Origin: Aeromonas eucrenophila
GTDB taxonomy: Bacteria; Pseudomonadota; Gammaproteobacteria; Enterobacterales; Aeromonadaceae
Direction: 5' to 3'
Assembly: GCF_000819865.1 (NCBI RefSeq)
Contig: NZ_CDDF01000011.1
Span: forward strand, 116,566-180,565
DNA length: 64,000 nt
The position numbers and the translations under genes are program-made. Under the pieces are notes generated by a model. It was not told the origin of the DNA. It did no database searches and saw only the letters and a program-made list of their open reading frames with translations. Position 1 is the stretch's first letter. Every line of letters begins with the position of its first letter. Of the stretch, positions 47,534-52,413 are shown piece by piece.

Positions 47534-48760
47534 ATGGGATTCGACACTGGCGCACTGCTCCCCTTGAACGAGGCCCTGCAAGGGATGCTGGACCAACTCG
47601 CCTGCAACTGCGACACCGAGCAGTTGCCGCTGCCCCAGGCGCTGGATCGGATCCTGGCGGAAGATATCGCCTCCCCCCTCTCGGTGCCCCCCTTCGATAA
47701 CTCCGCCATGGACGGTTACGCCGTGCGTCTGGCCGATCTCGCCACCGGTACCCCGCTCAAGGTGGCGGGCAAGGCCTTCGCCGGTCAGCCCTATGAGGGA
47801 GAGTGGCCCGCCGGCCACTGCATCCGCATCATGACGGGGGCCCCGGTTCCCGCCGGCACAGAGGCTGTCATCATGCAGGAGGAGGCCGAGCTCGAAGGGG
47901 AGCTGGTGCGCTTTATCAGCCAGCCCAGACCCGGCCAGAACATCCGCCGCCGCGGTGAAGACATGGCTGAGGGCTCGCAGGTGCTGGCCTCCGGCCTGCG
48001 TCTGAGCCCCCGCGAGTTGCCGCTGCTGGCCTCCTTGGGCATCGCCACCGTCACCGTGCGCCGTCCGCTCAAAGTCGCCATCTTCAGCACCGGCGATGAA
48101 CTCAAGCCAGTGGGCACGCCCCTTGCTCACGGCGACATCTACGACTCCAACCGCTACGGGGTCAAGGCCATGCTGGCGCGCCTCGGCATCGATTGTCTGG
48201 ACCTTGGCATCATCCCGGACGATCCCGCGCAACTGCGTGCCGCCTTCATCCAGGCAGACAGTGAAGCCGATGCCCTGATCACCACGGGCGGCGTCTCGGT
48301 CGGCGAGGCAGACTTCACCAAGCAGTTGCTCGAAGAGCTCGGTGAAATCGGCTTCTGGAAACTCGCCATCAAGCCGGGCAAGCCGTTCGCCTTCGGCCGC
48401 CTGCCCAACGCCTGGTTCTTCGGCCTGCCGGGCAACCCGGTCTCCGCCATGGTCACCTTCGATCAGCTGGTGCGCCCGGCCCTGGCCAAGCTCGCCGGCC
48501 AGACTTTCATACCGCCACTGCGGATCGGCGCCGTCGCGAGCGAACCCTTGAAAAAAGCGCCGGGCCGGCTGGACTTCCAGCGCGGCATCTTGAGCGCGGG
48601 CCCGAACGGCCTCGAGGTGCGCAGCACAGGCTCTCAGGACTCCGGGGTGTTCAGCTCCCTCTCCAAAGCGAACTGCTACATAGTGCTGGAACAAGAGCGC
48701 GGCAGGGTGGCGGCGGGGGACACCGTCACCGTCGAGCCCTTCGCGGGGCTGCTGCTGTGA
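47534..48760 (+). CDS. moeA: Molybdopterin molybdotransferase
   Basis: 408 residues. Inserts molybdate into adenylated molybdopterin. [84 protein letters not shown] and [14 protein letters not shown] are all MoeA signatures. The start at 47534 ([15 protein letters not shown]) matches the E. coli N terminus and sits 8 bases from AGAGG; an ATG at 47528 is also possible. It overlaps moeB by 4 bases. Confidence 0.97.
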
Positions 48761-49512
48761 GCGAGATCCTCTCGGACGCGGAGCTGCTGCGCTACAACCG
48801 CCAGATCATCCTGAAATCCTTCGACTTCGAGGGACAGGAGGCGCTCAAGCAGGCTCATGTGCTGGTGATAGGTGCCGGCGGCCTTGGCTGCGCCGCCGCC
48901 CAGTATCTGGCGGTGGCTGGGGTCGGGCGGCTGACCCTGGTGGATTTCGACAAGGTGGAGCTATCCAACCTGCAGCGCCAGGTGCTGCACAACGACGGGC
49001 GCATCGGTCAGTACAAGGTGGACTCCGCCGCCGAGTCCCTGCGTGCCCTCAACCCCTGGCTGAAAGTGGAAACTCACGCCGCCGTCGCGGACGAGGCGCT
49101 GCTCGATGCCCTGTTGCCGAGCCACCGGCTGGTGCTCGACTGCACCGACAACGTAGTCATCCGCAACCTGCTCAACCAGAAGGCCAGACGGCATAAGGTG
49201 CCGCTGGTCTCCGGCGCCGCCATCCGGCTGGAGGGGCAGCTGTGCAGCTTCACCTGGCAGGAGAGTGAGCCCTGCTACGCCTGCCTGAGCTCGCTGTTTG
49301 GGGAGCAATCCCTCACCTGCGTCGAGGCCGGCGTGCTGGCCCCCATGGTGGGGCTGGTGGGCAGCCTGCAGGCGCTGGAAGCCATCAAGCTGCTGGCCAG
49401 CATGGGCAAAACCTACAGCGGCCGGCTGCTGATGATCGACGGCCTTGGCGGCGGATTTCGCGAGTTGAAGCTGCCCAAGCGCCCCGACTGCCCGGTCTGC
49501 TCACATCCCTGA
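48757..49512 (+). CDS. moeB: Molybdopterin-synthase adenylyltransferase
   Basis: 251 residues, GTG start inside the moeA stop (GTGA). Adenylates the C-terminal glycine of MoaD. The E1-like fold is visible: [68 protein letters not shown], and zinc cysteines in CYACL and CPVC. Its substrate MoaD is encoded at 56276-56521 in this window. Confidence 0.97.
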
Positions 49513-49590: not shown

Positions 49591-50406
49591 TTAGAAGATC
49601 CCCTTCGCCTTGACCTTCTTCATGTTGGCCACTTGGCTCGAGAGATCCTCGATCAGCGGCTCGGCACTCGACTCATCCCCGACCTGTCGGCCCGGCTGGC
49701 TGGCCAATCGCTGGATCAGCCGATGCTGCTCACGAATGAGTTTGGATTGCTCCTCCAGCTGGCGAGAGAGCAGCGCCAGGCTGTTCTGCAGTGGCGCCAG
49801 ATCCGTCTCAACCCCCATCGCAGGCAGCTTGCCTGCGATGGCGTCCGCCAGCTGATCGTGATCCAGCGCCCCTGGCAATCCCTGGCGTAGCTCATCCCAG
49901 AGTTCGGTGGGTTGCTGCTCACCAAGGCGGCTCACTATCTCATCCACCAACTGGTCCGACGCCGGCATGGCCTGAGGCTGGCTCAGGCGTTGCACTATTT
50001 CTTCCAGTATCTGGGCACTGTTGTCCTGACCCAACTGGGGAGCCAACCTGGCCACTATCTGATCGATCATGGCGTCGGTCAGAGCCGGGGCATCACTTCC
50101 CTGCCCCAGATCGAAGCCGCAGCTGGCGAAGGCATGGCGCAGGGTGGCCAGGCTCACCTGCTCCGGGCCGAAGGCATTGGCCACCGCCTTGCACAGGCTG
50201 GGGGCCAGCACGTACATGAACATGCCGGACAGGTAGATGTCCTTGTGGAAGCGGCTCTTGGAGAAATCGAACTCCTCGACCCCGTCCTGGATCTTGCGGG
50301 CCCTTTGATACCAGCTCTGCAATACCCCAGCCGCATAGCGGTCAGACTCCAGCGCACCCGGATCCATGTAGATGGAGAAGGTCATGCGCTTGAGCTGACT
50401 ACTCAT
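49591..50406 (-). CDS. ParR/StbB-like DNA-binding partner of ParM
   Basis: 271 residues. Residues about 6-85 resemble the ribbon-helix-helix module of plasmid ParR: a short strand (KRMTFSIYMDP), a helix (ESDRYAAGVLQSW) and a later helix (RFHKDIYLSGMFMYVLAPSL). A long acidic helical middle part of repeated I/L-rich units follows (IDQIVARLAPQL; LEEIVQRLSQ; VDEIVSRLGEQ; LADAIAGKLP). Then come a coiled-coil stretch (LLSRQLEEQSKLIREQHRLIQRLA) and a basic C terminus (MKKVKAKGIF), where ParR proteins contact ParM. It is much longer than R1 ParR (117). Its ATG overlaps the parM stop by 8 bases. DNA binding is inferred. Confidence 0.65.
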   Translation of the reverse strand: MSSQLKRMTFSIYMDPGALESDRYAAGVLQSWYQRARKIQDGVEEFDFSKSRFHKDIYLSGMFMYVLAPSLCKAVANAFGPEQVSLATLRHAFASCGFDLGQGSDAPALTDAMIDQIVARLAPQLGQDNSAQILEEIVQRLSQPQAMPASDQLVDEIVSRLGEQQPTELWDELRQGLPGALDHDQLADAIAGKLPAMGVETDLAPLQNSLALLSRQLEEQSKLIREQHRLIQRLASQPGRQVGDESSAEPLIEDLSSQVANMKKVKAKGIF

Positions 50407-51442
50407 CGTCAACCCCGGCCATCACGGCCGCTTCCCGATACACCTCTTCTTCCTCCGTGGTGTAGAGGCAAATCTCCCGGGCCAGAGCAGACTGGGCGTC
50501 TTCCAACAGCTCGACCCGCTCACCCAGGGTCGGATAGGCGCTCTTGATCGCCTCAACGATGAGGGAGGCGCCACCACCGACTAGATAGACCCGGTTCGGG
50601 TTCTTGGCGAACTTCTTCGCCTCGTGGGCCACCTGGGAACCCAGCTCGTCGATCTTGTTCTGCATCTTCTCGAGGATGCGCGGGATCTGGCTCTCGTCAT
50701 TGACCACGTCGCGCACGAAGCTCATGTCGTGACGACGCTTGATGAACTCGTTCGCCACCAGGTAGCTGGAGTCGCTGTCTGCCGCCGCCAGGGCCTTGCG
50801 GGTGGCGTCAGTCACCATGGAGACGCCGATCTCGTTGTTGCCATACACATCGGAGACATCGTCAAACTCACCGACGATGATCCCCATGTCCAGGGTGGTG
50901 CCACCGCAGTCGATCACCAGGGTCTTGGTGAACTCGTTGCAACCGGAGCCAACCAGACGGGACAGGGCTGCGGGCAGGCTTTCCGGCATCACCTCGACGC
51001 TGACGATGTTGAACAGCTCACCTTTGTTCAGGGAGATGGCACGCATCAGGTTGCGGCGCTTCTTCTCAATCTTCTCTTCGTTGCGCTGACAGTCATCCGG
51101 GTTGTAGAACTCGGTGATGGGCAGGGTGACGGTAATGGCCACATCCCCCGGGGTGACGCCGGTCTGCAACAGGGCATGATGCACGGACAGCAGGTTCAGG
51201 TCGTCGTACTGGTACTCCACATGGGTCGTCGCCAGGGACTTGTCCGAGGTGGCGTCATAGGTGTACTTGGTGTTGCCTATCTCGTAGTTGTAGATCTTCT
51301 TGTCCTTGCGCAAGGCGGCGCTCTTCCAGTCTTTACGGAAAGAGTTGGGAGAGATGATGGTCTTGAGCACCTTGTTCTCGATCCAGCTCACCTTGACGTT
51401 GGTCGAACCATCATCGATGGCCATTTTTATTACTTCAGACAT
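50399..51442 (-). CDS. parM: ParM/StbA-type actin-like ATPase
   Basis: 347 residues, very similar to plasmid R1 ParM (320). Phosphate-1 loop IDDGSTNVKVSW at residues about 9-20; ISPNSFRKDW; QYDDLNLLSVHHALLQTG; TLPITEFYNPDD; phosphate-2 loop IDCGGTTLDMG; adenosine motif VYLVGGGASLIVEAIK. It polymerises with ATP to push DNA apart in plasmid segregation. Here it is surrounded by housekeeping genes, with no replication gene or integrase visible. The start at 51442 has an AGGG upstream. It forms a two-gene operon with the ParR-like gene, the same order as plasmid parMR. Confidence 0.9.
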   Translation of the reverse strand: MSEVIKMAIDDGSTNVKVSWIENKVLKTIISPNSFRKDWKSAALRKDKKIYNYEIGNTKYTYDATSDKSLATTHVEYQYDDLNLLSVHHALLQTGVTPGDVAITVTLPITEFYNPDDCQRNEEKIEKKRRNLMRAISLNKGELFNIVSVEVMPESLPAALSRLVGSGCNEFTKTLVIDCGGTTLDMGIIVGEFDDVSDVYGNNEIGVSMVTDATRKALAAADSDSSYLVANEFIKRRHDMSFVRDVVNDESQIPRILEKMQNKIDELGSQVAHEAKKFAKNPNRVYLVGGGASLIVEAIKSAYPTLGERVELLEDAQSALAREICLYTTEEEEVYREAAVMAGVDDE

Positions 51443-51471
51443 GAGGAAAACCCTGTTGATAGAGCGAAATG

Positions 51472-51515
51472 GGTCCGATTGCCTTGCCTTATGCCCTTGG
51501 CAAGGCGATCGGACC
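51472..51515. promoter_or_regulatory. 17-bp inverted repeat in the parM leader, candidate operator/centromere
   Basis: Arms ggtccgattgccttgcc (51472-51488) and ggcaaggcgatcggacc (51499-51515) match at 16 of 17 positions, with one G-T pair and a 10-base spacer. It sits 30 bases upstream of the parM start. In R1 the ParR-binding parC site is in the same place but is made of direct 11-bp repeats, so the resemblance is positional only. As RNA it would form a strong hairpin and could also be a terminator of an upstream transcript. Confidence 0.6.
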
Positions 51516-51553
51516 AATCCATACACGGTGAATAAGGCTAAGGGGCGACAAGT

Positions 51554-52315
51554 TTAATGAGTTTCTAAAATCCGGTGAAGCAAATGATTGAATCCGGCGG
51601 GATCTTCCGCCGGCCAGGCGTGATGACCTGGGGGGGTGTGGATGCTGGCGTTGGGAAGGGCAGCGAATTGTTCTACCCGTTTGGCCAGCGGCAGATAGTC
51701 CTGGGTGGTGGAGATGATGGCGACCGGCTGCACTATCTGGCCGAGACGGGCGCGGGCCGACCAGCCGGGCAGGCCATCGAGCAGGGCCCGATAGGTCTTC
51801 TTCTTGTTGCTGCGCACGAAGCGCTGGCGGAAAGTGGCGCGTACCTGGGCGAGCTCGGGGCCGGGGAACAGCTCGCGGCCGAGCCACCAGGCGAGCGGGC
51901 GCATGCCGAACCAGCGCAGCCATTTAAGGCGCATGGCATGGCGCTCCTGATCCTTGGGGGTCTCCAGCAGGAACTCGCTGAAGCCGTTGACCAGCACCAG
52001 CCCGCGCACCTTGTGCGGCAATTGCAGGGCCAGCTCCAGCGCCACCATGGCCCCCAGCGACAAGCCCACTATCCAGGCGGGTTCAGGCTGTTCGTCGAGC
52101 CAGCGCGCCACGTCACCGGCCAAGGTGCCGACGTCGAAGGGGCCTTCCTGCAGGCTCTGGCCGTGGCCGCGCAGATCCAGCGCCACCACCCGGTAGTGTT
52201 CGCTGAAGCGCTCTATCTGCGCCTGCCAGTCGAGGCTAGAGGAGCCGAGCCCGTGCAGCAGCAACAGCAGGGGGCCTTCTCCTGCACTGCGCAGGGCCAG
52301 CCCGTGGGATTTCAT
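51554..52315 (-). CDS. Alpha/beta hydrolase
   Basis: 253 residues. The oxyanion region is LLLLHGLGSSSLDWQAQI. The nucleophile elbow is IVGLSLGAMVALELA (serine of GLSLG), and the catalytic histidine is in PPGHHAWPAEDP. An aspartate in STTQDYLP may complete the triad. It resembles BioH/MhpC/3-oxoadipate enol-lactonase relatives; the substrate is unknown. A GTG at 52333 with GAGAGGAAGAGA upstream is an alternative start. Confidence 0.88.
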   Translation of the reverse strand: MKSHGLALRSAGEGPLLLLLHGLGSSSLDWQAQIERFSEHYRVVALDLRGHGQSLQEGPFDVGTLAGDVARWLDEQPEPAWIVGLSLGAMVALELALQLPHKVRGLVLVNGFSEFLLETPKDQERHAMRLKWLRWFGMRPLAWWLGRELFPGPELAQVRATFRQRFVRSNKKKTYRALLDGLPGWSARARLGQIVQPVAIISTTQDYLPLAKRVEQFAALPNASIHTPPGHHAWPAEDPAGFNHLLHRILETH

Positions 52316-52413
52316 TACCTGATTACGACGCACGGATCTCTTCCTCTCGACTCCTGCCTGCCTCAACATCCGCCCCTGACGGCTTGCGCGCCAGATCCCG
52401 GAGCCGGTGCTCG

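Follow-up and report, generated by a model that had tools for sequence, protein, structure and literature searches.

The question raised by this locus is what a segregation pair of plasmid type does on a bacterial chromosome. In the stretch of DNA analysed here (the window, 64,000 nucleotides of Aeromonas eucrenophila, assembly GCF_000819865.1, contig NZ_CDDF01000011.1, positions 116,566 to 180,565 of the forward strand), a parM gene, encoding an actin-like ATPase, is followed by the gene of a larger protein resembling plasmid ParR, here called the partner. An earlier, sequence-only reading of this DNA had proposed a domesticated plasmid system having a new cargo, such as a chromosome region, a membrane complex or a stored plasmid, or else a defence or partition function of a new kind. 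The notion of a new cargo fitted what we found, whereas the chromosome region, the stored plasmid and defence did not, as both the distribution of the pair and its gene neighbourhoods pointed to lateral flagella. We consider it very probable that the pair is linked to the lateral flagellar system, and we lean slightly towards the more specific reading that it is a plasmid-type ParM–ParR module co-opted by the lateral flagella of gammaproteobacteria, which would place or share out these flagella.

Co-occurrence of the pair with lateral flagella in Aeromonas

A survey of Aeromonas genomes, as the sequence-only reading had suggested, was performed with 37 genomes, using one per species here as well as for the order-wide analysis described below. 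The partner was present in 20 of these genomes and ParM in the same 20, and FlhA of the lateral type (at least 871 bits, with polar FlhA reaching at most 686 bits) was found in exactly those 20 and was absent from the same 17. The Fisher p value for this co-occurrence was 6e-11, which ignores kinship. When placed on a tree of the polar flhA gene from the 37 genomes, the joint label changed 13 times, with at least 10 of the changes forced by well supported branches; the tree was built from one gene, and 10 forks are open among its 34 inner branches. An independent-pairs test gave 10 pairs and a sign test p of 0.002, with the same vector having been given twice because both traits were identical in all 37 genomes.

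The two traits are not neighbours on the Aeromonas chromosome. None of 16 Aeromonas loci had flagellar genes near the pair, and the distance from the pair to the lateral flhA in three single-contig genomes was 1.95 Mb (G010), 1.96 Mb (G023) and 1.11 Mb (G015). In the window's own genome, the lateral cluster, with flagellin, FlhA and a LafK-like sigma-54 activator, was found on another contig (C8).

Co-occurrence and linkage outside Aeromonas

Among 295 genomes of the order, ParM was matched at an E value of at most 1e-3 in 23, of which 17 carried a ParM at least 62% identical to that of the window and the other six one below 50%. Using cuts of at least 60% identity for a family ParM and at least 761 bits for a lateral-type FlhA (set in a gap from 705 to 761 bits), the lateral type was found in all 17 genomes with a family ParM and in none of the six with the less similar ParM, being present in 39 of the 295 genomes in total. 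With Aeromonas set aside, it was found in 8/8 genomes having a family ParM, as compared with 30/279 genomes in all (p 7e-9). One genome (G263), having a partial FlhA with 57% identity and 688 bits, fell below the cut and was counted as negative; it gave no ParM match. As a separate observation, three genomes of the same family and another genus (G061, G119 and G255; also L261) had a single FlhA that passed the cut, this being of the lateral type, and gave no match to ParM, with G061 also having a surrounding lateral-like cluster.

We also analyzed the surroundings of 80 named loci, being the best 80 of 98 relatives, some of which end at contig ends so that a flagellar neighbour may be missed. 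At least two flagellar gene types were found within 10 kb in 40 of the 64 non-Aeromonas loci, at a median distance of 867 bp to the nearest, with the remaining 24 comprising one with a single flhA match and 23 with none. This count excludes FlgE, FlgG, LafK, MotY, an NlpC/P60 gene and two unnamed genes, and the LafF reference used has a doubtful start codon. In Photobacterium, Enterovibrio and many Enterobacteriaceae the pair follows lafA-fliD-fliS-lafE-lafS-lafU, in the Enterobacteriaceae with one extra gene between lafU and parM, which in the two cases scanned with Pfam (L139:9135-9896 and L141:9138-9899) encodes an NlpC/P60 hydrolase, possibly opening the cell wall to lateral flagella; relatives of this gene occupy the same position in other Enterobacteriaceae. 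Buttiauxella, Pluralibacter and two Citrobacter carry the pair with fliEFGHI on one side and flhA-flhB-fliR-fliP on the other. In G066 and an uncultured Ferrimonas it is flanked by a motY-like gene and by fliM, and in two Vibrio (L161 and L170) it is found next to flhB-fliR-fliP. The genomes of these two Vibrio (Vibrio sp. Y2-5 and V. xiamenensis; G343 and G344) contained three FlhA types, at about 930–940, 780–785 and 678–686 bits, and may thus have a third flagellar system.

When the genomes of the 24 unlinked and of six linked non-Aeromonas loci were searched, an unbroken FlhA of at least 853 bits was found in 29 of the 30, including 23 of the genomes with unlinked loci, where it was of the lateral type. 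The exception was Vibrio mexicanus (L259, G322), in which one contig carries both a LafS-like factor and the lateral run fliP-Q-R-flhB-flhA, its flhA being split over two frames. That split may be a frame shift or an assembly error; parM and the partner gene are open in this genome. Taken together, co-occurrence and linkage argue for some function shared by the pair and the lateral system.

Properties of ParM

The coordinates of all features are given in Table 1. The parM reading frame ends at a stop codon at 50399–50401, and the ATG at 51442 was taken as its start in preference to an in-frame GTG at 51526, which would give a longer frame, because relatives align from the ATG and because a hairpin sits between the two codons. 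The protein matched the Pfam domains StbA_N (E 1.4e-59) and ParM C-terminal (E 4.7e-36), and its residues 8–310 matched ParM of plasmid R1 (Protein Data Bank, PDB, entry 1mwk) at E 2.1e-67. All four PDB matches up to E 1 were ParM, with neither MreB nor FtsA among them, and the actin-type nucleotide loops DDGSTNVK, DCGGTTLD and GGGASL were present as quoted earlier. These results bore out the prior description of a chromosomal ParM of plasmid type, closer to R1 ParM than to MreB or FtsA. It was the single ParM match in the host genome. With omega values of 0.025–0.080 in seven comparisons with other Aeromonas, the gene is under purifying selection.

Table 1. Features of the parM locus in the window
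Feature	Position	Strand	Basis
moeB-like flanking gene (ThiF family)	48757..49512	+	PF00899, 8.4e-73; one border of the empty site
parR-like partner, 271 aa	49591..50406	-	Open reading frame, family alignment A2 and PF10784
Conserved C-terminal tail of partner, last 14 residues, ending KGIF	49594..49635	-	79/79 share the tail pattern
Variable linker, partner residues 97-257, with nearly invariant Q227	49636..50118	-	Length changes between species in A2
N-terminal ParR-type (ribbon-helix-helix-like) domain, partner residues 4-96	50119..50397	-	hhalign; 2jd3 profile match
parM, actin-like ATPase (ParM/StbA family), 347 aa	50399..51442	-	Pfam domains and PDB match
Hairpin/palindrome, 30 nt before the ATG of parM	51472..51515	-	Folding against shuffles; conservation in 13 Aeromonas rows
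Alpha/beta hydrolase flanking gene	51554..52369	-	PF12697, 5.2e-23; other border of the empty site

The partner as a diverged ParR

The partner gene starts with an ATG at 50406 and stops at 49591–49593, thereby overlapping parM by 8 bp, in agreement with the overlapping translation described before. As a single sequence, the window's partner matched the plasmid ParR family PF10784 only weakly (E 0.15). In an alignment of its family (A2, with four database proteins and 43 of the 80 named loci besides the window), 23 of the 48 members matched PF10784 at an E value of at most 0.1, the best at 6.7e-13. When the family was compared by hhalign with eight plasmid and phage ParR proteins (alignment A3, from which a 223-residue ParR-like protein of plasmid L190 was excluded), residues 4–96 were aligned with a probability of 96.4 and an E value of 1.4e-9, revealing an insertion of about 13 residues relative to plasmid ParR. 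The top PDB match of the family profile was StbB/ParR (2jd3, E 7.2e-5, covering profile positions 50–106 only). From these three lines of sequence comparison, the partner is best described as a diverged ParR, and profile comparison likewise supports the predicted resemblance of its N terminus to a ribbon-helix-helix ParR.

Two other candidate relationships of the partner were rejected. Designed helical repeats of the alphaRep type gave PDB matches (best 6e-8) with their best stretches within residues 215–268, which are helical and of low complexity, and the family profile ranked ParR first; single-sequence Pfam matches of the Sigma54_CBD type were seen for only two of the 48 family members.

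The part of the partner following the ParR-type domain is a linker that has repeats and is rich in helices, as is the C-terminal half of the partner as a whole, judged by eye from A2. The large size and helical repeats of the partner had been pointed out before, which agrees with what we saw, although the size is ordinary within its own family, whose members range from 171 to 352 residues across 79 loci. Length differs between species as a result of varying repeat number in the linker; in L118:11037-12092 and P0068, the linker contains a short repeat (such as LVDEIVSRLGQQ) in varying copy number. The sequence [KR]G-x-[FW] formed the very C terminus of all 79 partners examined. Plasmid ParR binds ParM through the ParR C terminus, and we propose that the partner tail is likewise the putative ParM-binding end; the residues of this tail are not those found at the ends of the plasmid and phage ParR proteins compared. 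Omega values of the partner were 0.10–0.22 in seven comparisons with other Aeromonas.

Among the 80 loci, one (L142, at a contig end) had no visible partner, and in two (L115 and L143) the partner starts late, owing to a frame shift or another start. In A. salmonicida ATCC 33658 (L115, L066; G025), the start and the body of the partner are found in different frames and the contig with the lateral cluster stops at lafA, and both may be decaying.

Genomic site of the pair

The locus is chromosomal, being found on a contig of 470 kb (C11) with housekeeping genes, and the pair is also located within the single-contig genomes G010, G015 and G023. As had been noticed earlier, the surroundings consist of housekeeping genes, which we identified as those for MoeA, the ThiF-family moeB product, the alpha/beta hydrolase and a TOBE-domain ABC ATPase. 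Reading the list of open reading frames from 45 to 56 kb, we saw no replication, conjugation or integrase genes, again in line with the prior description.

Of the 17 Aeromonas genomes without the pair, 15 have the hydrolase gene immediately after moeB; in G006 (L210) about 590 bp separate the two genes, and in the remaining genome the contig stops at the site. Because of this direct adjoining in 15/17, the pair behaves as a clean two-gene cassette. The window shares its flank on the hydrolase side with 13 named Aeromonas loci. The same empty site, together with the neighbouring genes, ruled out a plasmid or prophage remnant and spoke against a locus found only together with an integrated plasmid, which would have undone the earlier reading. 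In A. diversa, A. simiae and Aeromonas sp. RU39B (L151, L148 and L136; G009, G027 and G029), a more distant pair is located on another contig than moeB, with a partner only 29–33% and a ParM 77–78% identical to those of the window.

Region upstream of parM

The parM leader folded better than all but one of 200 shuffles (z -2.86). The hairpin, as counted in 13 Aeromonas rows (with L116, included in the flank alignment, being excluded), has 16 pairs with 96.6% of the cells paired; three pairs had both bases changed, always in the single row of A. enteropelogenes. Position 51515, where the element had been considered to end, is the outer edge of this hairpin and not the start of ParM. Rfam gave no match for the hairpin up to E 1, and the arm pattern, allowing at most two mismatches, was found only upstream of parM in the host genome. 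The hairpin may serve as an operator, lie in the leader of the messenger or belong to a terminator. A simple pattern for a lateral sigma-28 promoter was not found before parM, and the same pattern also missed lafA.

Plasmid parM genes have the parC direct repeats upstream. Such an iteron array was detected in four of six plasmid and phage controls, whereas in 17 of 18 family regions (17 of the 80 loci plus the window, 250 bp upstream and 15 shuffles each), including that of the window, no array above shuffles was found, and in that respect the family differs from ParMRC systems.

Origin of the family

A tree of 59 ParM proteins (that of the window, those of 43 of the 80 named loci and of three unnamed loci, and 12 others) placed the 47 family members on one side of a branch with SH-aLRT support of 99 and a stem of 1.55 changes per site, with 12 plasmid, phage and low-identity chromosomal ParMs on the other side; the tree was built by a quick method, and its plasmid rows have long branches. 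The proposed take-over of the module by lateral flagella would probably have happened once. Within the family, the main Aeromonas ParMs grouped with a Buttiauxella/Citrobacter type (R56), and those of the A. diversa type joined the ParMs located after lafU in Enterobacteriaceae, showing that the genus contains two lineages at different sites, both of which obey the co-occurrence rule. Out of 72,556 plasmid records, only a Photobacterium replicon of 2.1 Mb had the partner at E 0.01, together with a ParM 74% identical to that of the window; in the other 4999 best records, ParM was less than 60% identical among the matches listed, with 52% as the highest listed. Sixteen phage records had a ParM, at most 41% identical.

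Discussion

The reading towards which we lean can be phrased as a sequence of steps. A ParM–ParR module would have been taken over by the lateral flagellar system, losing its DNA centromere array, with the ParR cargo adaptor having exchanged its DNA centromere for the basal bodies of flagella. ParM would form ATP-driven filaments, the C-terminal tail of the partner would bind the filament ends in the same manner as in plasmid ParR, the variable linker would act as a tether, and the ParR domain would be held at lateral basal bodies or assembly sites, either directly or via another protein. By growing, the filaments would set the spacing, the placement or the sharing of lateral flagella over the length of the cell and among daughter cells, a task that FlhF and FlhG perform for polar flagella. 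The lateral basal body or assembly site would be the most likely cargo because of the genetic link to lateral flagella. We infer here the polymerisation, the tail binding, the cargo and the flagellar effect, and judge the chances of basal bodies being placed or shared out in this way to be evenly balanced. The same even judgement applies to the domesticated pair being a dedicated cytoskeleton that positions or partitions the lateral flagellum, as an actin-based counterpart of FlhF/FlhG.

Several results weigh against a role in placing flagella. As many as 22 of the 39 genomes having a lateral-type FlhA lack a family ParM, and lateral flagella can therefore function without the pair. The term "lateral" was assigned by FlhA sequence similarity and not by microscopy, and a stricter FlhA cut (in a gap from 774 to 844 bits) excludes G144 and G262, lowering 17/17 to 15/17, although the pair lies inside that same flagellar cluster in both genomes. 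In the two linked Vibrio with a third FlhA type, at 780–785 bits, the flagellar neighbours of the pair may belong to any of the systems. The N-terminal domain of the partner has retained a ParR-like strand with basic residues, as seen by eye in A2, and DNA binding may therefore persist. With regards to the loss of a centromere, the repeat test missed two of the six controls and covered only 250 bp upstream, and one family region, that of Hafnia (L129), was positive with four copies as compared with at most three in 15 shuffles.

The best surviving alternative, which we nonetheless consider unlikely, is that the pair controls laf gene expression, with the ParR domain binding DNA upstream of laf operons and ParM titrating or switching it through its ATP state or by polymerisation. 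Plasmid ParR binds DNA and represses its own operon, the partner has kept that domain, a conserved palindrome precedes parM in Aeromonas, and the pair is located among flagellar genes in several genera, as regulators often are. However, the palindrome arm pattern was not found in the laf cluster, an ATPase with omega values as low as those of ParM exceeds what a repressor needs, and the host genome already has its LafK-like activator, with LafS-like sigma factors in many linked clusters.

A role in the swarmer state, where ParM filaments would transport nucleoids, arrays or some other cargo inside the elongated, laterally flagellated cells, appears more doubtful still. It would predict the same co-occurrence, since lateral flagella and swarmer differentiation often come together, and on plasmids ParM is a mover of DNA. 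Many Enterobacteriaceae, however, carry the pair among flagellar genes and we know of no swarmer elongation with their flag-2 type systems, and the upstream centromere array was missing from all but one of the regions analyzed. The latter result also counts against the pair still partitioning DNA, be it a chromosome region or a cryptic plasmid, using a centromere located elsewhere. That possibility agrees with the retained ParR-type domain and with the existence of chromosomal ParMs without an assigned role in other bacteria (PMC12270681), but we regard it as improbable, as it leaves the tie to lateral flagella unexplained and as plasmid relatives of this similarity, or with the partner, were not found beyond the Photobacterium replicon among the 5000 best plasmid records for ParM and the 72,556 records for the partner. 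Passive hitchhiking with lateral clusters, kept by chance, would suit those genera where the pair, located within or close to the cluster, would travel along, but was already disfavoured and is highly improbable considering the megabase distances in the three single-contig Aeromonas despite at least 10 joint gains or losses, the two ParM lineages obeying the rule from different Aeromonas sites, and the strong purifying selection.

On the open question of where bacteria place lateral or peritrichous flagella and how many they make, an actin–adaptor pair gained and lost with the lateral system is a direct and testable candidate. If true, our reading would be a clear example of partition machinery from plasmids being put to use for an organelle, and would also give one class of chromosomal ParMs a role. 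No report linking ParM–ParR to lateral flagella was found in the open-access literature, a scope outside which most subscription journals fall; the main text of PMC7526173 did not contain ParM, StbA, segregation or actin. According to PMC12452197, I-F3 CRISPR-associated transposons of Shewanella use genes of the ParM/StbA family as attachment sites, and these genes might be flagellar parM.

Comparison with known systems

The closest known system is ParMRC of plasmid R1 (ParM/StbA, ParR/StbB and parC), with which the pair shares the ParM homology over most of the protein, the ParR-type N-terminal domain and the parM-parR gene order, with the genes touching or nearly so. It differs from ParMRC by being chromosomal, by its separate ParM clade, by being found with lateral flagellar genes, by having upstream iterons in only one of the 18 family regions analyzed, and by a partner with an insertion, a mostly longer variable linker and a fixed end. 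MamK is another bacterial actin that arranges an organelle, the magnetosome, but belongs to a different family (the NCBIfam MamK model matched ParM only at E 0.077) and has, to our knowledge, no ParR-type partner.

As described in PMC12270681, the chromosomal ParMs (cParMs) of Desulfitobacterium and Clostridium botulinum are similar in being accompanied by ParR, and its authors suggest roles beyond plasmid segregation; the cassettes listed there are instead mostly from Firmicutes, with one from Burkholderia, and the main text did not contain the terms flagell-, Aeromonas, Photobacterium or Enterobacter. The Flag-2/lateral loci of Enterobacterales are the kind of cluster that hosts the pair; the survey of these loci counted 39 conserved proteins, and in its main text the terms ParM, StbA, segregation and actin were not found (PMC6993521). 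Finally, according to a 2025 review, whether FlhG has any specific partners in lateral systems is unclear (PMC12826062). FlhF/FlhG, a switch made of an SRP-type GTPase and a MinD-type ATPase that governs how many flagella are made and where (PMC12826062), resembles the pair in the job proposed for the latter, with the two systems using different folds, FlhG being of the MinD type and the ATPase studied here of the actin type.

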